A stretch of 64,000 bases of DNA from Moritella sp. (GTDB lineage: Bacteria > Pseudomonadota > Gammaproteobacteria > Enterobacterales > Moritellaceae), in contig NZ_JABSQR010000031.1 in NCBI RefSeq assembly GCF_013215705.1, positions 1-64,000 on the forward strand, given 5' to 3'. Each line of letters opens with the position of its first letter. The stretch's first letter is position 1. The notes below the pieces were generated by a model. The model saw only the letters and a list, made by a program, of their open reading frames with translations. It was not told where the DNA came from and ran no database searches. Shown here in pieces: positions 5,462 to 49,007 of the stretch. The position numbers were made by a program, and so were the translations under genes.

Positions 5462-6331
5462 TTAACCTAATTTAGCACGTAATGCCGAGCCAATATCAGC
5501 TAATGAACGTACAGTTGATACACCTGCATCTTCGAGTGCTGCAAATTTCTCATCCGCAGTACCTTTACCGCCAGCGATTATTGCGCCAGCATGGCCCATA
5601 CGCTTACCTGCTGGCGCTGTAACACCGGCAATGTAAGAGACAACAGGTTTAGTTACATTCGCTTTAATATAAGCTGCTGCTTCTTCTTCTGCGGTACCAC
5701 CAATTTCACCAATCATAACGATTGCTTCAGTTTGCGGATCATTTTCGAATAATTCAAGTATGTCAATAAAGTTTGTACCGGGGATCGGATCACCACCGAT
5801 ACCAACACATGTGGATTGACCGTAACCTTCATCCGTTGTTTGTTTTACTGCTTCGTACGTAAGCGTACCAGAGCGTGAAACAATACCAATTTTACCCGGT
5901 TTGTGAATGTGGCCAGGCATAATACCAATCTTACTTTCACCAGGAGTGATAACACCTGGACAGTTAGGGCCGATCATACGCACATTTTGTTGATCAAGTT
6001 TAACTTTAACTTCGATCATATCAACAGTCGGAATACCTTCTGTAATACAAACGATAAGTTCGATACCAGCATCAATCGCTTCTAAAATCGCATCTTTACA
6101 GAATGGAGCAGGTACATAAATAACAGAAGCTGTTGCGCCTGTTGTTTCTACTGCATCACGTACTGTGTTAAATACAGGTAAGCCTAAATGTGTAGTGCCA
6201 CCTTTACCAGGAGAAACACCACCAACCATTTGTGTTCCGTAATCAACAGCTTGCTCTGAGTGGAAAGTACCTTGACCACCCGTGAAACCTTGACAGATCA
6301 CCTTCGTATCTTTATTAATTAAAATGCTCAT
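5462..6331 (-). CDS. sucD: Succinyl-CoA synthetase alpha subunit
   Basis: Makes, with SucC, the heterotetramer that converts succinyl-CoA plus ADP and phosphate to succinate plus ATP. The protein is 289 residues, the usual length. A Rossmann CoA-binding domain starts with [14 protein letters not shown]. The ligase domain carries the phosphohistidine, H247, in [16 protein letters not shown] near 121-126 is also typical. The start codon touches the sucC stop codon, so translation is coupled. It is the last gene of the operon, followed by a hairpin terminator. Confidence 0.98.
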
Positions 6332-7498
6332 TTATTTGCCCTCCGCTGCTGCAACAACTTGCTGCGCGGCATCCGTTAGGCTAGATGCTGCAATAATATT
6401 TAAGTCAGATTTAGCTAAAACTTCACGGCCTAATTCTGCATTGTTACCTTCAAGACGGACAACAACTGGCACTTTTACACCCACTTCTTGTACTGCTCCG
6501 ATAATACCTTCGGCGATCATATCACAACGCACGATACCACCGAAAATGTTAACAAGTACGGCTTTAACATTGTCATCAGAAAGAATGATTTTGAATGCTT
6601 CAGCAACACGTTCTTTTGTTGCGCCGCCGCCTACGTCAAGGAAGTTAGCTGGTTTGCCGCCATGGATGTTAACAATATCCATCGTGCCCATCGCTAGACC
6701 AGCGCCGTTTACCATGCAACCGATACTACCGTCTAATGCAACATAGTTTAACTCAAATTTAGCAGCGTGAGCTTCACGTGCGTCTTCTTGAGTAATATCT
6801 TGCATTGCACGTAGTTTAGGTTGGCGATAAAGTGCGTTTGAATCGATAGTAATTTTACCATCTAAACAAACAAGATCACCGGCACCAGTAACGATAAGTG
6901 GGTTAATTTCAAGTAGCGCCATATCGCAATCAGTGAACATTTTAGCTAGACCCATAAAGATCTGTGTAAACTGTTTGATTTGAGCGCCTTGTAAACCAAG
7001 TTTGAATCCAAGTTCACGCGCTTGGAAAGGTTGTGCTCCAACAAGCGGATCAATCGTTGCTTTGTGAATTAACTCAGGAGTTTGTTCAGCAACCGTCTCA
7101 ATATCAACGCCACCTTCAGTTGATGCCATAAATACAACTTTACGAGAACCACGGTCGATAACAGCACCAAGGTAAAGTTCATTAGCGATATCACCTGCAG
7201 CTTCAACAAGAATTTGTGAAACCGGTTGGCCTTTCGCATCGGTTTGATAAGTAACTATGTTTTTACCTAACCAATGCTCAGCGAATGCGGTAATTTCTTC
7301 TTTGGAAGTTACAAGCTTAACACCACCTGCTTTACCACGCCCACCGGCGTGAACTTGACACTTAACAACCCATTTATCGCCGCCAATTTTATCAGCGAAA
7401 GCTGCAGCTTCATGAGGTACGTTTGTTGCGTAACCTTCAGGAACTGGCAAACCATATTCAGCAAAAAGTTGTTTTGCCTGATACTCATGCAGATTCAT
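6332..7498 (-). CDS. sucC: Succinyl-CoA synthetase beta subunit
   Basis: The nucleotide-binding subunit of succinyl-CoA synthetase, 388 residues, the same length as the enterobacterial protein. It has an N-terminal ATP-grasp domain ([33 protein letters not shown]) and a C-terminal flavodoxin-like domain with [10 protein letters not shown] and [12 protein letters not shown]. It follows sucB after 117 bp holding a hairpin and a short tandem repeat, the largest gap in the suc part of the operon. Confidence 0.98.
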
Positions 7499-7542
7499 GC
7501 TCGTATATCCATGTTAATAGCCACAAGGGCTTGTCCCGAGAA

Positions 7543-7609
7543 CTTACGCCTCAAGATAAGGCGTAAGCAATTAAATACTTAAACTAAACATTACTAAACA
7601 TTACTAAAC
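7543..7609 (-). repeat. Hairpin and short tandem repeat between sucB and sucC
   Basis: CTTACGCC (7543-7550) pairs with GGCGTAAG (7560-7567). Next to it lies a short tandem repeat of the unit AAACATTACTA (about 7584-7609). There is no clear U-tract. It could be an mRNA processing or stabilising structure that sets the sucAB to sucCD ratio; that role is inference. Confidence 0.5.
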
Positions 7610-7615
7610 TAAAAA

Positions 7616-8800
7616 TTACACATCTAAAAGAAGACGAGTTGGGTCTTCTAATAATTCTTTGATTGTTACTAAGAATCCTACAGACTCTTTACCATCAACG
7701 ATACGGTGATCGTAAGAAAGAGCCAGATACATCATTGGCAGAATGACAACTTGACCATCGACAGCCATTGGACGATCTTGGATTTTATGCATACCCAAGA
7801 TTGCGCTTTGTGGCGGATTGATGATTGGTGTTGACATTAATGAACCAAATACACCACCGTTAGTTACCGTGAAGTTACCACCAGTAAGGTCTTCAATTGA
7901 CAATTTACCATCACGACCTTTAAGCGCTAAATGACGAATGTTCTTCTCGATATCAGCAAGGCTCATCGTGTCACAATCACGTAGTACTGGCGTAACCAGA
8001 CCACGAGGTGTTGAAATAGCGATACTTACATCAAAGTAGTTATGATAAACAATATCAGTACCATCAAGTGACGCATTCACTTCTGGATAACGTTTTAACG
8101 CTTCAACAACCGCTTTCACGTAGAAAGACATGAACCCTAAACGAATACCATGACGCTCTTCAAATATATCTTTATACTGCTTACGAATATCCATGATAGG
8201 TTTCATGTTAACTTCGTTAAACGTGGTCAGCATTGCCGTTGAGTTTTTAGCTTCTAATAGACGTTCAGCAATACGCTTACGTAAACGCGTCATAGGAACA
8301 CGTTTTTCGCTACGACCAGGTTGAAGTTCAACTGGAGCAACAACAGGTGCAGCTGCTTTTGCAACTGGCGCGGCAACAGGAGCTGCTAATGCTTTTTCGA
8401 CATCTTCTTTTATGATCTGCCCATTTTTTCCAGTACCAGTAATCTTAGAAGCATCTAAACCTTTTTCTGCAATAAGACGACGTACAGCAGGGCTTGCATC
8501 GACACTTTCCTCATTCACTTCTGCTGGTTTATCTTTTGTTTCTTCGCCAGCGACAGCGCCGACTTTCAGCTTACCAATCACTTGCTGACCAAGAACGGTT
8601 GCACCGTCATCTTCAATAATTTCAACAAGCACACCCGCTTCAACAGCCGGCACTTCTAAAATAACTTTGTCAGTTTCAATCTCTACAATAATATCATCGC
8701 GCTCAACAGTATCGCCAGGGCGTTTATGCCATATTGCAATAGCTGCATCTGCTACAGATTCTGGCAGTACAGGTACCAAAATTTCAATTGTCATTTTCAT
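7616..8800 (-). CDS. sucB: 2-oxoglutarate dehydrogenase E2 (dihydrolipoyl succinyltransferase)
   Basis: Transfers the succinyl group from the E1 intermediate to CoA in the 2-oxoglutarate dehydrogenase complex. The protein is 394 residues. It has one lipoyl domain (residues ~4-78) with the lipoylated lysine in ETDKVILEV, a peripheral-subunit-binding domain ([17 protein letters not shown]), an Ala/Pro/Val-rich linker, and the catalytic core ending in SYDHRIVDG with the active-site His. It lies 15 bp downstream of sucA. The lpd gene for E3 is not in the window. Confidence 0.98.
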
Positions 8801-8815
8801 AATTCCTTTAATAAA

Positions 8816-11629
8816 CTATTTCTGTGCAACAGTTAAAGCATCTTCAATAAGTGCTAGCTGTTGTTTTGTATGTACAGACATGTAACCGACTGCAGGAGAT
8901 GCTGATGCAGCTCGCCCAGCATAACTTAACTTCGCGCCTTGCGGGATTGCGCCCCAGAAATTATGCTGACTTGAATACCAAGCACCCTGATTCTGAGGTT
9001 CTTCTTGACACCAAACAAACTGGTCTACGTGTTGATATTCTGCAAATACAGCTGCAATTTCCGCATGTGGGAAAGGATAAAGCTGTTCAATACGTACAAT
9101 AGCAACATCCGTCTGACCCGATTTACGACGCGTTTCCAATAAATCGAAATATACTTTACCACTACACATCACCACACGTTTAACTTGTGCTGAGTCGAGC
9201 GTATCAATTTCACCAATTATATTTTGGAACGTGCCATCTGCTAATTCAGATAAACTAGAAATAGCTAATGGGTGACGTAATAACGATTTAGGTGTCATCA
9301 CGATCAATGGACGACGCATTGGGCGTACTGTTTGACGACGCAGCATATGATAAACCTGCGCAGGAGTACTAGGTACACACACTTGCCAGTTGTGCTCAGC
9401 ACACATTTGCATATAACGTTCTAAACGTGCAGATGAATGCTCAGGACCTTGCCCTTCATAGCCATGTGGTAACAATACTGTTAAGCCACACATACGACCC
9501 CACTTCTGTTCACCAGAAGAAAGGAATTGATCAAATACAACTTGTGCGCCATTGGCGAAATCACCAAACTGTGCTTCCCAAATAGTTAAACCACTTGGTT
9601 CAGTCGTCGCATAACCATATTCAAACGCTAATACCGCGGCTTCAGACAATACTGAATCGTGAATAGTTAGCTCACCTTGTTCAGGTTTTAAGTTAGCTAA
9701 TGGTGTGTAGGTACTTGCGTCATCTTGATTGTGTACAACGGCATGGCGATGGAAGAAAGTACCACGACCAACATCTTGTCCAGTGAGACGAACTTTGTAG
9801 TTGTCGTCAAGTAATGTTGCATATGCAAGCGTTTCAGCAAAACCCCAATCACATGGTTTCTCGCCTTTTGCCATTAAAATACGGTCTGAATAGATCTTTT
9901 GAACACGAGATTGGATCTTGTGCCCTTCTGGTACAGCCGTCATTTTCAATGCAAGGTCAGATAATTTATCTTGAGGCACTTGTGACTGATAAGGCATATC
10001 CCATTCGTGTTTTAAGTATGGGTTCCAATCAACTGAGTGCTTTTGCATTGGGCGCCATTCTTTAACAACACATTCACCATGATCAAGTTGATCACGATAT
10101 TCGTTAATATAGCCTGTTGCTTCAGCAGCATCAATAACGCCTTCATTTACAAGTTGATCTGCATATATTTTACGTGGCGTTGGGTGTTTTTTAATTTTCT
10201 TATACATTAATGGCTGTGTTGCACTTGGTTCATCAGCTTCATTATGGCCGTGGCGACGATAACAAACTAAATCAATCACAACATCACGCTTAAATGTATT
10301 ACGGAAATCAAGTGCGATTTGTGTTACCAATACAACAGCTTCAGGGTCATCTGCATTAACATGGAAGATGGGAGCCTGAACCATTTTTGCGATATCCGTA
10401 CAGTATTCTGTAGAACGCATATCTTTCGGGTTTGATGTTGTAAAACCAACTTGGTTATTGACAACAATTCGAATTGTACCACCAATGCCATAAGCACGTG
10501 TTTGCGACATATTGAATGTCTCAGCAACAACACCTTGACCAGTAATTGCAGAATCACCATGAATTGTAATTGCCAGTACATCATCACCGTTAGTGCTACC
10601 ATAACGTTCTTGACGTGCACGAACAGAACCCATGACTACTGGGTTAACAATTTCTAAATGCGATGGATTAAAAGCAAGTGCTAAATGTACATTACCGCCT
10701 GGCGTACTAAAATCAGAACTGAAGCCCTGATGATATTTAACATCACCCGCACCCCATGCGTCACCGTGTTTACCAGCAAATTCATCAAACAGGTCATTCG
10801 GTTTTTTACCAAGCACATTCACCAGCATATTCAGTCTGCCGCGATGCGCCATACCAATAACGGTTTCTTTGATACCTTGTTCACCACTACGACGAATTAA
10901 TTCTTTCATCATTGGAATCAGTGCATCACCGCCCTCAAGCGAGAAACGTTTTGCACCAGGGAACTTAGCACCAAGGTATTTTTCCAGACCTTCAGCTGCG
11001 GTTAAGTTATCTAAAAATCGTAATTTATCTTCTTTTTCAAACTCAGGCGTGCTTTCAACTGATTCTAAACGGCTTTGGATCCAACGTTTTTCTTCAGTAG
11101 AAACAATATGCATATACTCAGCTGCAATTGAACCACAATAGGTTTTTTGTAACGAAGTATAAAGCGCACTAAGTTTCATGCTTTCTTGGCCAATTGCATA
11201 TGAACCAACATTAAAACTGGCATCAAAATCAGCATCAGAAAGGTTGTGATATGCAGGGTCTAGATCTTGTACACGATCACGTTTCCAAAGACCTAATGGA
11301 TCTAAGTTAGCATGTTGATGACCTCGAAAACGGAAAGCATTGATTAACTGTAATACTTTAACCTGTTTCGCATCATTATGTGGGTCGCTTACTTGAGCAG
11401 CATATCGAGAGGTATCTTTCGCTAGGCGAATGAAATAATCCTTTACAGGACCATGTGGAACTTCTTTAGTATTATCAACTTTAGGTAGCTCTAAAAATAC
11501 AGTTTGCCATTCTTCGCTAACTGTATCTGGATCTGCCAAAAATTGCTCATATAGATCTTCAATGTATGTCTGGTTCGCACCGGCTAGATGAGAGGATTCT
11601 AACCAGGCTTTCATGACGTTATTCTGCAT
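8816..11629 (-). CDS. sucA: 2-oxoglutarate dehydrogenase E1
   Basis: Thiamine-diphosphate-dependent decarboxylase that commits 2-oxoglutarate to succinyl-CoA. The protein is 937 residues, close to the 933 of E. coli. Typical blocks include GMAHRGRLNMLVNVLGK, FNPSHLEIVNPVVMGSVRA, GDSAITGQGVVAETFNMS and CYRRHGHNEADEPSATQP. The C-terminal transketolase-like region contains EAQFGDFANGAQVVFDQF. A stem-loop lies in the 117-bp gap after sdhB. Confidence 0.98.
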   Translation of the reverse strand: MQNNVMKAWLESSHLAGANQTYIEDLYEQFLADPDTVSEEWQTVFLELPKVDNTKEVPHGPVKDYFIRLAKDTSRYAAQVSDPHNDAKQVKVLQLINAFRFRGHQHANLDPLGLWKRDRVQDLDPAYHNLSDADFDASFNVGSYAIGQESMKLSALYTSLQKTYCGSIAAEYMHIVSTEEKRWIQSRLESVESTPEFEKEDKLRFLDNLTAAEGLEKYLGAKFPGAKRFSLEGGDALIPMMKELIRRSGEQGIKETVIGMAHRGRLNMLVNVLGKKPNDLFDEFAGKHGDAWGAGDVKYHQGFSSDFSTPGGNVHLALAFNPSHLEIVNPVVMGSVRARQERYGSTNGDDVLAITIHGDSAITGQGVVAETFNMSQTRAYGIGGTIRIVVNNQVGFTTSNPKDMRSTEYCTDIAKMVQAPIFHVNADDPEAVVLVTQIALDFRNTFKRDVVIDLVCYRRHGHNEADEPSATQPLMYKKIKKHPTPRKIYADQLVNEGVIDAAEATGYINEYRDQLDHGECVVKEWRPMQKHSVDWNPYLKHEWDMPYQSQVPQDKLSDLALKMTAVPEGHKIQSRVQKIYSDRILMAKGEKPCDWGFAETLAYATLLDDNYKVRLTGQDVGRGTFFHRHAVVHNQDDASTYTPLANLKPEQGELTIHDSVLSEAAVLAFEYGYATTEPSGLTIWEAQFGDFANGAQVVFDQFLSSGEQKWGRMCGLTVLLPHGYEGQGPEHSSARLERYMQMCAEHNWQVCVPSTPAQVYHMLRRQTVRPMRRPLIVMTPKSLLRHPLAISSLSELADGTFQNIIGEIDTLDSAQVKRVVMCSGKVYFDLLETRRKSGQTDVAIVRIEQLYPFPHAEIAAVFAEYQHVDQFVWCQEEPQNQGAWYSSQHNFWGAIPQGAKLSYAGRAASASPAVGYMSVHTKQQLALIEDALTVAQK

Positions 11630-42454: not shown

Positions 42455-42526
42455 TTAATAACAATTAATGTAACAAGCTTAATGCCTAGTTTGTTACACT
42501 AATTACCTTAGTTAATGGAGTCATCT

Positions 42527-42889
42527 ATGCTCAACAATTTATTGATTTTCGGTTTAACTGTCATTAGCTTGTCGGCGCTCTCATATATTATATATATTAA
42601 AATAATTGCACCGCTTACAAGTATCACGGGTTATATTCAGGAAGCCAAATTTGAGCATGACATCATCAATAAACTTGAACATGCAACAGATACGCATGGC
42701 TTATCCGAACGCTATAATTTAATGCTCGATAACAACATCAGTGAATCGAGTTATTTCGATAAATTAGAACAGAGCTTAAAACAGCGTAACGCGAGTCAAA
42801 CAAATAGCCCCTCAATCAAACCGAGCCGTAGCATGCTAAATCAACTAAGTTTGCTGCAACAAAAGAAAAAGCAAATAAATTACCATTAG
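42527..42889 (+). CDS. Small single-pass membrane protein, unknown
   Basis: The protein is 120 residues from the ATG at 42527, which has GGAG six bases upstream; the ATG at 42515 overlaps that site. One transmembrane helix at ~3-26 is followed by a charged, partly helical cytoplasmic tail rich in Asn, Ser and Lys. I do not recognise a family. It stands alone between bioA and asnS. Confidence 0.65.
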   Translation: MLNNLLIFGLTVISLSALSYIIYIKIIAPLTSITGYIQEAKFEHDIINKLEHATDTHGLSERYNLMLDNNISESSYFDKLEQSLKQRNASQTNSPSIKPSRSMLNQLSLLQQKKKQINYH

Positions 42890-44918: not shown

Positions 44919-45839
44919 CTATTTAAGATGTTTTTTTATGAAGTCGATAATTTGAATCAACGCAGCCTTACTTTCAGGAAGTTGTTCAAACAAGGGGAAA
45001 ACATGCGGCATTTGTCGCCATATTTGTAAATGGGCATCAACACCCTTAGCCTGCATAAATTCAGCCAATCGGGTAGAGTCATCACGCATTAGTTCGGTAC
45101 TACCGACATGGAACATAAAAGGAGGGAAACCGGTGAAATCACCAAATAACGGTGAAATCTCGTCATTGTGTAGATCGGTATTATCTCCACCTAAATACCA
45201 ATTTCGGCAATGTAACATAACTTCTAGGCTAAACAGTGCATCACTATAACGGTTTTCCACCGAAGACATGCCACTTTGCGTCATGTCTGCTACGGGTGAT
45301 AATAACACGCAGCAACTCGGCATTGGTAAGCCATTACGTTTAGCGCGTAACAATAGCGATAAAGCAATATTACCACCAGCAGAGTCCCCCGCTACGATGA
45401 TATCTTCAGGTAAAGTACCTGCATCTAATAATGATAGGTAAATGTCATAACAGCAATCCAGCGCTGCAGGAAAAGGCTGTTCAGGTGCCAGTGGATAATC
45501 GGGAATAATGGCGTGTAGATCGAGTGGCTCAGCTAAACGCGCTATAAAATTGTTATGTATTGCTGGGGTTTTAAAAACGAAGGCACCGCCATGTACATAT
45601 AATAATTTTTTCTTCGTATTTGAAAATTTAAGCTGTATTTCATCACACAAAGTACCAGCACGCACTGATTGCGAGTGTTGAATATTAGCGCTAGTGCCAA
45701 ATACAAATTTATCTAGCGCGAGCATCTGAAAACGCAATTTATTCACGTCTTTGGTATTTTCAATCGAGCGTTTCACTGTTTGCTTCAAAAATAAATTCAG
45801 CGCTTTGGCTTGCCAACTAATCAAAATAACCTCGAACAA
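44919..45839 (-). CDS. HSL-family alpha/beta hydrolase
   Basis: The protein is 306 residues. The oxyanion HGG (residues 83-85, YVHGGAFVF), nucleophile S153 in GDSAGG, acid near D253/D254 (LMRDD) and H279 (QMPHVFPLF) make a complete esterase/lipase triad. No signal peptide, so it is cytoplasmic. It lies 68 bp downstream of the WS/DGAT gene on the same strand, suggesting turnover of acyl esters. Substrate unknown. Confidence 0.9.
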   Translation of the reverse strand: MFEVILISWQAKALNLFLKQTVKRSIENTKDVNKLRFQMLALDKFVFGTSANIQHSQSVRAGTLCDEIQLKFSNTKKKLLYVHGGAFVFKTPAIHNNFIARLAEPLDLHAIIPDYPLAPEQPFPAALDCCYDIYLSLLDAGTLPEDIIVAGDSAGGNIALSLLLRAKRNGLPMPSCCVLLSPVADMTQSGMSSVENRYSDALFSLEVMLHCRNWYLGGDNTDLHNDEISPLFGDFTGFPPFMFHVGSTELMRDDSTRLAEFMQAKGVDAHLQIWRQMPHVFPLFEQLPESKAALIQIIDFIKKHLK

Positions 45840-45907
45840 TATTTATACGTATAACAAAAAACTAACCATACCAGTTAGACGTTCCCTTCTAAGCCACCAC
45901 TTTTATT

Positions 45908-47302
45908 TTAGCGTGAAGAGATTAGTACTGAATGCTGCTTGGCATTATCAAGAATTTCATTTGATAGGATCTCACAAGCCGTTTCTACATGACGTGAGAG
46001 TATATCTAAATCAGGCAGTTCATTTTTACAACCCACCAAGCCGAAAAATACGTCGTTGTGATAACTATACAAGGTAATGTTGAGTGCCGTGCCTGCAGAG
46101 AGTACTGATACAGGATACACTTCGGTTAACTTCGCACCAGCAAGGTAAGCAAATTCTTGCTGACCACGCACATTCGAAACAATCACAGAACCCAATGGCG
46201 GCAAAAACTTAGAAATACCTAACCATTCAGAGATCGACGCGCTTGCTTGGATCAATAATGAAAAATTAACCACCGACTCTGCCGGTAGACTAAACAAATC
46301 TTTTTTAACGCTGCTGGTACGCTTAAAAATTGTTTCTAAATGGTCTAATGCATCGGCATCAACATTGCCGAGTTCAACCCCTGTTAACGCATTTCTACGT
46401 CCATTTCCGATTCTAACGGGCACCTGAGCAACTAATGGTTTACGTAATAAAATACCTTTTTCTTTCAAATAACGATTTAGGCCAATATCAACACAACATA
46501 AAATCACGTCATTTAATGTTACGCCCGTTATCTTGCTGATCGAGCGCATTTTTTCGAACGGTAAACGGCCAAAAGAAACAATACGCGAGCGTGTTGCAGG
46601 TACCGAAAATGGTGTTCGAGGGGCGCAAAATGGTAACGCAGGCCCTTGATTTCGTAGGTTGAGGAATTTTAATCCCATCCGCATACTTAACCGAACAATA
46701 CCTGGAATCGATTTAAGCTGTTTGAGTCCACTCATATAAGTCGATAACGCGCTTTCAATAACCCCCGCAGACTCTTTATAACCAGGACGGAATGATGGGA
46801 TCTGCCAAAATGGGCGATAATCATTTACCGATTGATCACTTTGTAAATATCCTGACAACCAACTATTTGCCATCTTACCATCTGCCATCGCATAATGAAT
46901 TTTAGTAAAGATAGCGAAGCGACCGTCAGATAAACCCTCAATCAAATACACTTCCCATAACGGACGCGTTCTATCGATTAAGTGTGAATGTAAACGTTCA
47001 ACTAAATCACGTAGTTGTTCATCAGTACCATCACCGGGTAACATTGACATACGAATATGATAATTAAAATTAAACTTACTATCGTGTACCCAGTAGTATA
47101 GGCCACCCATACTTTTTTTAAGTTTAAAGTTAAAAGGGGTAGCTACAGCGGGATCCATGATTAACTTTTGAAATAGATCGCGGGCAAAGTTGCCTTCATA
47201 GTCCTTTGGCGGTTCAAAAATTTGCAACCCCGAAAAATGCTTGGGACTTGCTGTACTCTCACTTAATAAAAATGAGGTTTCAACCAATGATAATTGTTCC
47301 AT
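45908..47302 (-). CDS. Wax ester synthase / diacylglycerol acyltransferase-like protein
   Basis: The protein is 464 residues from the ATG at 47302, which begins with the family start MEQLSLVETSFLL. It has the N-terminal acyltransferase domain with a PLW block (RTRPLWEVYLIEGL), and a C-terminal WES domain with NDVILCCVDIGL and SNVRGQQEF. The active-site motif, normally HHxxxDG, here reads HYAMADG (136-142): the second, catalytic His is Tyr. The rest is well preserved, so it is probably a functioning but divergent enzyme or one with changed chemistry. It lies 22 bp after a PHA-system gene. Confidence 0.9.
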   Translation of the reverse strand: MEQLSLVETSFLLSESTASPKHFSGLQIFEPPKDYEGNFARDLFQKLIMDPAVATPFNFKLKKSMGGLYYWVHDSKFNFNYHIRMSMLPGDGTDEQLRDLVERLHSHLIDRTRPLWEVYLIEGLSDGRFAIFTKIHYAMADGKMANSWLSGYLQSDQSVNDYRPFWQIPSFRPGYKESAGVIESALSTYMSGLKQLKSIPGIVRLSMRMGLKFLNLRNQGPALPFCAPRTPFSVPATRSRIVSFGRLPFEKMRSISKITGVTLNDVILCCVDIGLNRYLKEKGILLRKPLVAQVPVRIGNGRRNALTGVELGNVDADALDHLETIFKRTSSVKKDLFSLPAESVVNFSLLIQASASISEWLGISKFLPPLGSVIVSNVRGQQEFAYLAGAKLTEVYPVSVLSAGTALNITLYSYHNDVFFGLVGCKNELPDLDILSRHVETACEILSNEILDNAKQHSVLISSR

Positions 47303-47324
47303 AATATCGAGCCTTAATCGTACT

Positions 47325-47621
47325 TTATCTATACGAACATGCTGCCTTTGGCAACAGTTCATCCAGTGTTTCTTCAATGCTTTGCTTTAATACAAAGCTC
47401 ACTGGAAACAGCAGGATCCCTAATTTTAATTTGATTCTGATACTTTCCGCATCCGCATGTAAGTACCCTCTGGTATGTGCATGCTGAATATGAAGTTTAT
47501 CACCTCGCCATTCTAATTTAAGGTTATACTCTTCAGCTATATCAAGCATTAATTCGTCTGCCAAACGAATTATTTGATGATGCGGTAAGCTATGATCGCG
47601 AATGATTTCAATACTGCCCAT
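47325..47621 (-). CDS. Polyhydroxyalkanoate-system family protein
   Basis: The protein is 98 residues from the ATG at 47621, which has GGAG six bases upstream. It matches the small family annotated as polyhydroxyalkanoic acid system protein (IRDHSLPHHQIIRLADELM, then a GDKLHIQHAHTRGYLHAD segment). Members occur near lipid- or PHA-storage genes; the exact role is not settled. Immediately upstream of the WS/DGAT gene and likely co-transcribed. Confidence 0.8.
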   Translation of the reverse strand: MGSIEIIRDHSLPHHQIIRLADELMLDIAEEYNLKLEWRGDKLHIQHAHTRGYLHADAESIRIKLKLGILLFPVSFVLKQSIEETLDELLPKAACSYR

Positions 47622-47697
47622 AATTAACTCCACTCGATAGTGACAACTTGACGAGTTTTAAATCTAATGGACGATATTATAGGGAAAATAACTAGAA

Positions 47698-47722
47698 AGC
47701 GCTTACTAAACCACTAAGCGCT
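47698..47722 (-). terminator. Hairpin after the LRAT gene
   Basis: AGCGCTTA (47698-47705) pairs perfectly with TAAGCGCT (47715-47722). On the minus strand a T-rich run follows. It separates the LRAT and PHA-system genes. Confidence 0.65.
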
Positions 47723-47757
47723 ATGCAGGAAGAAAACTAAACATAAAGAGGTATGGA

Positions 47758-48291
47758 TTACGTGTTTTCATCATCAACATCTTGATTACTATTAATTAAT
47801 AGCACTAACCAAAATCCTGTTGAAGTAAAAATAGCATGCTTCCACCAAGACAGTGACGCTTCATTTAAATGTGATAATTGCGAGGCGATACTCCAAAACA
47901 ATGCCGAGCGTAAACGGCCACTGGTGTACTTGTTAACTAACAATGTGGCAATCAACACTAAAGCGCGGCGTAATTGTGGACTCGACACTTTCACACCACA
48001 CACTTCATGCACGAAATGTTCACAATTGTTCTTCAACAAATGATAACGCTTTTTATCTGCGATCAGTTGTTCCGCATTTTCAACGATATTTTCGGCTGGT
48101 AAACTACCAGGCAAGAAACCATGATCGATAATGTCTTTATCATCAGAAAAATCTTGTAGACTAACTAAACCACGACCAGAACGCGCTCTGGAATTTTCAA
48201 AAACCTGACCACACCCATCCGAGATGCCCACATGATAGTAAAGTGGGAATTGTACACTGAGTAAATGTCCTTTTGGATATGGTGTCGTCAT
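47758..48291 (-). CDS. LRAT/NC-domain thiol acyltransferase-like protein
   Basis: The protein is 177 residues. H20 in YYHVGI and C90 in NNCEHFVHEVCG give the circularly permuted papain-like core. NCEHFV is exactly the motif of vertebrate LRAT and HRASLS/PLAAT enzymes. A hydrophobic C-terminal segment (~152-168) would anchor it in the membrane. LRAT-type enzymes move acyl groups between lipids or cleave phospholipids, which suits this neighbourhood. The second active-site His of vertebrate forms is not evident. Confidence 0.82.
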   Translation of the reverse strand: MTTPYPKGHLLSVQFPLYYHVGISDGCGQVFENSRARSGRGLVSLQDFSDDKDIIDHGFLPGSLPAENIVENAEQLIADKKRYHLLKNNCEHFVHEVCGVKVSSPQLRRALVLIATLLVNKYTSGRLRSALFWSIASQLSHLNEASLSWWKHAIFTSTGFWLVLLINSNQDVDDENT

Positions 48292-48338
48292 CTTATGTCC
48301 TCAGTTCTTATTGAATGCTAATTCCAAATTCAGTCGTG

Positions 48339-48893
48339 TTAATTATCTATACGGGTAACAAAGCTGTCGATATTAAGTTGGCGTATTTTTTTACACGCTA
48401 CATCGGGTGTGCCTAAATATAAAAAACCCACAATTTCATCTTTTTCTTCAAGTTCAAGCTTTTGTTTTATATGACTATCATAAGCAAACCAACCGGTTCG
48501 CCAAATACCATTAAAACCTTGTGCTTGCGCCGCCATTTGCATGGCCATTACCACACAACCTGCCGACATTAATTGCTCAGACTCAGGGATCTTGGGGTGA
48601 TCTTCAATTCTAGCAATAACAGTAATAATTTGCGGTGCGCGAAACGGCGCATTTGCCGCCTTTAATACATCTTTTTCTGACTTGCCAAGATTAAATGCCG
48701 CATCTTGAAAATAGTGCGACAAAGTGTTTAAACCTTCACCTTCGGTGATAATAAAACGCCAAGGGCTTAATCCACCGTGATCAGGTGCACGTAATCCAGC
48801 ATGAATAATATTATCTAATGCTTCACCACTTGGGGCTGGTGCGATAAGCTGATTACAAGAATGGCGATTTATTAATAAGTCAATTGCGTCCAT
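48339..48893 (-). CDS. Nitroreductase family flavoprotein (YdjA-like)
   Basis: The protein is 184 residues. INRHSCNQLIAPAP, DHGGLSPWRFI and GFNGIWRTGWFA match the small YdjA-type NAD(P)H nitroreductases, which bind FMN as dimers. It lies 47 bp before the LRAT gene on the same strand. Physiological substrate unknown. Confidence 0.9.
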   Translation of the reverse strand: MDAIDLLINRHSCNQLIAPAPSGEALDNIIHAGLRAPDHGGLSPWRFIITEGEGLNTLSHYFQDAAFNLGKSEKDVLKAANAPFRAPQIITVIARIEDHPKIPESEQLMSAGCVVMAMQMAAQAQGFNGIWRTGWFAYDSHIKQKLELEEKDEIVGFLYLGTPDVACKKIRQLNIDSFVTRIDN

Positions 48894-48975: not shown

Positions 48976-49007
48976 AAAAAAGCCCATACATGGTATGGGC
49001 TACTTTT
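48976..49007 (-). terminator. Terminator after fadH
   Basis: AGCCCATAC (48981-48989) pairs perfectly with GTATGGGCT (48993-49001) across ATG, followed on the minus strand by a T run. Confidence 0.88.

Follow-up and report, generated by a model that had tools for sequence, protein, structure and literature searches.

What does a protein of the wax-ester synthase family WS/DGAT do once its catalytic histidine has become a tyrosine in every examined genome of a genus? The question is raised by a window of 64,000 nucleotides from a Moritella genome (G000:C29:1-64000 in our labels, in which G denotes genomes and L loci). Five genes of its minus strand follow each other in the order nitroreductase, LRAT-like protein, PHA_gran_rgn family protein, WS/DGAT and HSL-type hydrolase. 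The original prediction for this sequence placed the last four in one pathway, with acyl transfer from phospholipid, ester synthesis, granule association and ester release as its steps. The five families were correctly assigned; open reading frames and profile matches agree with them, and the order is kept in all 11 Moritella genomes examined. Absent from that account is the motif HYAMADG, in place of HHxxxDG, in the WS/DGAT protein (hereafter WSD-HY). On the evidence below, the PHA_gran_rgn-WS/DGAT-hydrolase core is, with fair probability, what remains of a larger wax-ester cassette, its synthase having been repurposed.

WSD-HY meets the Pfam cut-offs of its family, with 179.7 bits versus 23.6 for WS_DGAT_cat (PF03007) and 77 versus 20.7 for WS_DGAT_C. 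It falls just below the cut-off of TIGR02946 (306.7 versus 309.95 bits), a profile on which the Paraferrimonas cassette copy scores 378.4. The second histidine of HHxxxDG, stated to be the catalytic one in the consulted parts of two papers (PMC11948995, PMC5513132), is tyrosine in 11 of 11 Moritella genomes and histidine in all 126 other distinct homologues read, the other WS/DGAT copies of Moritella included. The HY protein and alignment-A1 patterns served as the queries that yielded these homologues, so the sample leans to near relatives. The PLW and ND motifs are kept (P114 L115 W116, N264 D265). When six HY rows were compared at 42 positions, each with a conservation of 90% or more across 49 HH rows, 34 positions were retained, with the first histidine and DG among the retained features, and eight were changed (D8E, H137Y, R299G, N302R, P318A, R321H, N372S and P379R). 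In the controls, 0 of 42 positions are changed in five Moritella HH rows relative to non-Moritella rows, and 2 of 41 are changed in the cassette rows. Six of 369 genomes of the class, the source genome included, gave a match at E-values up to 1e-60, and within that search no match above 35% identity was found outside Moritella; a plasmid search returned 40 records, all under 60%.

The reading frame is open in all 11 genomes, and the tyrosine is invariant across two codons (TAT in nine genomes, TAC in two). Mean nonsynonymous divergence (Ka) is 0.031 and mean synonymous divergence (Ks) 1.306, giving a Ka/Ks of 0.023, the lowest of 11 gene sets. The corresponding values are 0.045 for BioA, 0.056 for AsnS, 0.047 for the hydrolase, 0.082 for PHA_gran_rgn, 0.068 for LRAT, 0.058 for the nitroreductase, 0.033 for FadH and 0.053 for SppA; pairs with saturated Ks were omitted (5 of 55 for BioA, 10 of 55 for the hydrolase). 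Two sets of HH paralogues, HH-A and HH-B, which cover 10 of 11 genomes each and leave the third HH copy outside, give 0.049 and 0.042. A dead relic on its way out, as the lost catalytic histidine and the long stem branch might suggest, is contradicted by the open frames and this constraint and is hardly credible. Sequencing error and decay were likewise rejected as candidates by the agreement of 11 genomes and the Ka/Ks of 0.023.

An AlphaFold model of WSD-HY made with 55 rows has an intact two-domain fold, at a mean predicted local distance difference test score of 86.9. Its best fold matches are 6chj and 7nxg, followed by condensation-type domains including X-domains; the template modelling (TM) score with 6chj_B is 0.78 by query and 0.87 by target. 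The likeness to the Marinobacter (6chj) and Acinetobacter (AtfA/AbWSD1, 7nxg) enzymes extends over the whole length at 27-29% identity and includes PLW and ND, whereas the second histidine is Tyr, SNVPGP is SNVRGQ, and seven further conserved positions are changed. X-domains of nonribosomal peptide synthetases (4tx2, 4tx3) share the superfamily fold, at fold level only with TM about 0.5, and are parts of megaenzymes, unlike WSD-HY. They are non-catalytic condensation-like domains that recruit partner enzymes. Tyrosine for histidine together with seven other changes, an intact fold model and the lowest Ka/Ks argue that WSD-HY is probably a repurposed WS/DGAT, either a pseudoenzyme or a protein of altered chemistry.

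Were WSD-HY still an ester synthase, Tyr137, the first histidine or water would have to take over, perhaps at low temperature or with another acceptor; the locus would then work as first proposed, minus LRAT. The strong constraint accords with such a role, as do the retained PLW, ND, first histidine, DG and 34 of 42 conserved positions and the intact motifs of the hydrolase. The same genomes also encode canonical copies, so WSD-HY is not needed as a synthase. From the title of Stoveken 2009, both histidines are reportedly needed in the Acinetobacter enzyme, a requirement also reported in the part of PMC11948995 consulted. Two Thraustochytrium enzymes are described as active with the first histidine replaced; this precedent, however, retains the second (consulted part of PMC5513132). 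Continued ester synthesis by WSD-HY thus seems rather unlikely, and the synthase step assigned to it originally does not fit a catalytic His changed to Tyr in 11 of 11 genomes.

Other altered family members have been described. In Rhodococcus jostii RHA1, the second histidine of atf4, atf10 and atf14 is replaced by Lys, Ser and Pro, which resembles Moritella in that it is lost beside canonical paralogues; the Rhodococcus genes are reported outside lipid operons, whereas Moritella has a single Tyr form, fixed throughout the genus, at a conserved lipid locus (PMC2667194, as far as consulted). Archaeal NHxxxDG WS/DGATs are likewise a conserved group with an altered active-site motif but, unlike WSD-HY, lose the first, structural histidine and keep the catalytic one, according to the same portion of PMC11948995. 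Among the titles and abstract openings listed by the literature searches, none named a study of Moritella wax esters or a WS/DGAT pseudoenzyme.

The surroundings of WSD-HY match part of a larger gene set in related families. A full cassette consists of PHA_gran_rgn, two phasins, WS/DGAT and hydrolase, with a facing TetR, DUF2505 and a two-domain acyl reductase of ~670 amino acids, and is present at seven distinct loci (L155-L158, L160, L071, L077), with the hydrolase after WS/DGAT in seven of seven. Among 295 genomes of the order, 15 outside Moritella have a WS/DGAT match; five of these also have PHA_gran_rgn, and all five hold the full set together. Paraferrimonas sedimenticola and Ferrimonas marina also carry it, making seven loci, with a contig of Vibrio sp. 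PID17_43 and G167 counted once as they agree in sequence. In the 16 genomes of the order with both genes, PHA_gran_rgn always lies within 5.2 kb of WS/DGAT, the 5.2 kb being found in G029. Co-occurrence in 16 of 295 genomes has a hypergeometric p of 4.5e-13 by genome and 2.5e-4 by genus (six shared genera of 99), both uncorrected for kinship. A cut Corallincola contig contains a phasin, WS/DGAT and hydrolase; in Ferrimonas sediminum, WS/DGAT and hydrolase are present and the remaining cassette genes were not found.

The Marinobacter fatty acyl-CoA reductase Maqu_2507 has a two-domain layout. The cassette reductase, composed of NAD_binding_4 and short-chain dehydrogenase domains, is likened to it by layout, and Maqu_2507 homologues are noted near WS/DGAT genes in the consulted part of PMC10351704. 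The literature searches made turned up no description of the eight-gene cassette, which is a testable wax-ester storage unit in marine Gammaproteobacteria.

At the Moritella locus (L047), PHA_gran_rgn, WS/DGAT and hydrolase stand together as in the cassette of the relatives, and cassette queries for the two phasins, TetR, DUF2505 and the reductase found no match there. In G019, BioB and BioA lie next to the reductase end of the cassette, oriented as in the Moritella window, and by this collinearity the Moritella locus can be read as the cassette minus reductase, DUF2505, TetR and phasins. Comparison of neighbourhoods across genera, set beforehand as the test of the proposed pathway, therefore had a divided outcome, as the core co-occurs and LRAT does not. 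The neutral-lipid theme gains from the wax-ester origin of the core that the full cassettes reveal; the four-step acyl pathway is not supported as drawn.

Further wax-ester genes are dispersed in Moritella. A homologue of the reductase (53%) is present in 11 of 11 genomes away from the run, and at the two loci read it has no cassette neighbours; the phasins are also encoded elsewhere. Besides WSD-HY, 10 of 11 genomes encode three WS/DGATs and G010 encodes two; G004 has a fifth match, which is short and weak. Every further copy read is HH, the motif of the third copy being read only in G000 and G009. Around the three other copies of G000, no cassette phasin, hydrolase or reductase was found, only a TetR beside one. 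A TetR of 32% identity to that of the cassette lies directly behind one Moritella HH WS/DGAT (L148, 5515-7740).

In other genomes of the order, different WS/DGATs, about 25-30% identical to that of the run, lie several kb from a FadH-type reductase (L161, L165, L166, L167 and L168). This reductase is 58-62% identical to the FadH beside the Moritella run, and a crotonase-like gene and a GMC-type oxidoreductase (labels given by reading the sequences only) are conserved in between. In L162 (G022, 5706-10997), AsnS, a nitroreductase (36% to that of the run) and a distant WS/DGAT are close together, with a CysB-like regulator in the same stretch, as beside the Moritella C2 copy (L149).

A possible history of the locus begins with an ancestral cassette that would have held PHA_gran_rgn, two phasins, WS/DGAT, hydrolase, a facing TetR, DUF2505 and a fatty acyl reductase, of which the Moritella core would be the remainder, if reduction was indeed the direction of change. 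Ester synthesis would presumably be carried out by the further WS/DGATs and the reductase homologue at their other sites. The copy at the old site would have lost its catalytic histidine (HH to HY) and other conserved residues, and would then have been kept under strong purifying selection while probably no longer making esters in the usual way. The most likely role for WSD-HY would be to bind lipid or acyl-CoA as a partner or regulator, next to PHA_gran_rgn at the granule or membrane; alternatively, it would catalyse an altered reaction based on tyrosine. The hydrolase has probably retained esterase activity and would mostly be transcribed separately, and the nitroreductase and LRAT would form a Moritella-specific upstream unit. 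A more tentative proposal extends to the whole genus: a wax-ester synthase fold that could now be under strong constraint without acting as a synthase (but as a sensor of acyl lipids, a scaffold or a new enzyme using tyrosine) at its old locus with a granule-region partner, synthesis having moved to paralogues.

Several points weigh against a reduced cassette with a repurposed synthase. Judging from the sequence, a tyrosine in the catalytic position may retain some transfer activity; the score on TIGR02946 is only 3 bits short, and the Pfam cut-off is passed. The cassette and the reduced locus could be independent gatherings. BioB and BioA flank the cassette at only one of seven loci; PHA_gran_rgn is missing from the other 10 of the 15 non-Moritella genomes with WS/DGAT, and a further 11 genomes contain PHA_gran_rgn but no WS/DGAT. 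With Ks near saturation, Ka/Ks is a ranking and not a precise estimate. Trees were made from chosen subsets of 137 distinct WS/DGATs (65 and 26 rows; 24 rows of the larger tree belong to no group). HY, Moritella HH and cassette copies each form one clade with full support, and the HY stem is long (1.24 in the 65-row tree, 1.51 in the 26-row tree). HY with Moritella HH has a support of 87/69, and HY with the cassette copies is not rejected by the approximately unbiased test (p-AU 0.222); the tree leaves the sister of HY unsettled, so it is synteny that supports orthology with the cassette.

Annotation of WS/DGATs as ester synthases relies on profiles. The strongly conserved WSD-HY is very probably not one, which calls for caution in reading PF03007 hits as a measure of storage-lipid capacity. 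Should the new role be borne out, WSD-HY would be a pseudoenzyme of the WS/DGAT family whose ancestral gene cluster is known and whose canonical paralogues occur in the same cell, and a clean system for what the WS/DGAT fold does without the histidine.

The LRAT-like protein matches LRAT (PF04970) with 37.2 bits versus 24.3, over residues 63-97 only, and the exact NCEHFV motif noted originally is present. Cys90 is invariant in 18 rows and His20 is kept. The model of the protein matches PLAAT3 (4fa0, E-value 3.9e-05, TM 0.77 by target), a permuted NlpC/P60 fold. It is thus like the PLAAT3/LRAT family in fold and NCEHFV, and unlike PLAAT3 in having Glu or Asn at the place of the second His of the PLAAT triad in the Moritella rows, and extra C-terminal helices, modelled at low confidence. 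The third residue of permuted NlpC/P60 proteins is described as polar, Glu in BcPPNE, and perhaps dispensable in LRAT (consulted part of PMC3142127); with such variability, the modelled LRAT-like protein may well be an active phospholipase or acyltransferase.

Within the 295 genomes of the order, close LRAT homologues are confined to the 11 Moritella genomes, next to the core in all of them. Of the other 12 hits, 31-39% identical, 11 are spread over 10 other genomes and the twelfth is in Moritella G003; none of them adjoins a cassette in the 295 genomes, and no LRAT was found at the seven full cassettes with the Moritella LRAT as query. Nothing ties the LRAT-like protein to the core outside Moritella, and LRAT as part of a general cassette was rejected on its Moritella-only close homologues and its absence from the seven. 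The hit in G003 (L203, G003:C65:9330-9653) is a second, distant LRAT-like protein (32%); it is almost identical to a protein encoded in G175, a genome from another family (L202), and the gene is possibly mobile.

In a membrane-lipid remodelling pathway, a Moritella invention unrelated to storage, the LRAT-like protein would take acyl groups from phospholipid and WSD-HY and the hydrolase would act on the product. Adjacency in 11 of 11 genomes, a modelled PLAAT fold with Cys and His kept, and the normality of a polar third residue, Glu included, in the superfamily (same part of PMC3142127) agree with this. The seven full cassettes without LRAT speak against it, as does a promoter-like block that separates LRAT from the core in all 11 genomes, and we consider this pathway improbable. 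Together with the Moritella-only distribution, the same block argues against LRAT as a step of the pathway first drawn.

This block contains a perfect TATAAT. The run appears bordered upstream by a terminator-like hairpin behind FadH, followed by a conserved nitroreductase leader. A hairpin behind WS/DGAT is kept in 10 of 11 Moritella genomes, which does not favour the one shared transcript reaching the hydrolase that had been envisaged. An alignment of those 10 genomes has two-sided change at 5 of 14 pairs; the T tail is short, and the terminator scan did not pick up this hairpin in L049. The short WS/DGAT-hydrolase gap of the present strain goes with its lack of the hairpin. Promoter scans gave 19 calls versus 17.7 in shuffled sequence for the window, 16 versus 13.1 for L049 and 11 versus 11.5 for L053; terminator scans gave 5 versus 4.0, 2 versus 2.5 and 9 versus 3.8, respectively. 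For the window and L049 these numbers are close to those of shuffled sequence, and calls were used only together with conservation. The transcript borders proposed here are accordingly putative, drawn from patterns in the DNA and not from transcripts.

Coordinates of the features in the 64,000-nucleotide Moritella window
Feature	Position	Strand	Remarks
Nitroreductase (NF008088 / YdjA-type, the profile's name)	48339..48893	-	First gene of run; syntenic in 10/10 other Moritella
LRAT/PLAAT-like permuted NlpC/P60 protein, 177 aa	47758..48291	-	Cys90 and His20 kept; second-His place Glu/Asn
PHA_gran_rgn family protein, 98 aa, partner gene of core	47325..47621	-	ATG at 47621, stop ends 47325
WS/DGAT-fold protein, 464 aa, altered active site (WSD-HY)	45908..47302	-	ATG at 47302, stop ends 45908
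HYAMADG motif, residues 136-142; Tyr137 codon TAT at 46894-46892	46877..46897	-	Aligned to HH in 6chj
HSL-type alpha/beta hydrolase; start codon uncertain	44919..45839	-	Motifs HGGAF, GDSAG, DDST, PHV
Spacer WS/DGAT-hydrolase	45840..45907	-	Hairpin of 10/11 relatives missing in this strain
Inverted repeat AGCGCTTA..TAAGCGCT	47722-47698	-	Upstream arm not kept in all
Block TTTAGTNAGCGCTTTCTAGTTAT...TATAAT, promoter-like, perhaps end of LRAT unit	47676..47722 (with repeat); TATAAT 47681-47676	-	Kept 11/11
Terminator-like hairpin behind FadH, putative upstream border of run	48981..49001	-	Hairpin scan and conservation

The order BioA-AsnS-run-FadH-SppA is identical in the 10 other Moritella genomes, and the named Moritella loci (sp. 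JT01, M. dasanensis) are the same locus with 94-95% WS/DGAT identity. The small gaps noted originally between the core genes measure 22 bp (PHA_gran_rgn-WS/DGAT) and 68 bp (WS/DGAT-hydrolase); those upstream are 47 bp (nitroreductase-LRAT) and 136 bp (LRAT-PHA_gran_rgn). The nitroreductase scores 243 bits on NF008088 (cut-off 183), and PHA_gran_rgn meets the curated cut-offs of PF09650 (64.2 versus 26.6) and TIGR02610 (62.1 versus 40.25). The hydrolase matches Abhydrolase_3 (178.7 bits, cut-off 25) and stays below the NCBIfam HSL subfamily cut-offs (best GESAG_HSLs, 200.4 versus 430); its HGG motif, nucleophile elbow, Asp and His are kept in 11 of 11 Moritella. Between BioA and AsnS, an open reading frame of 124 amino acids (42515-42889, plus strand) has no Pfam or NCBIfam match; it is 72-94% identical in Moritella relatives and is present as two short pieces in L048.

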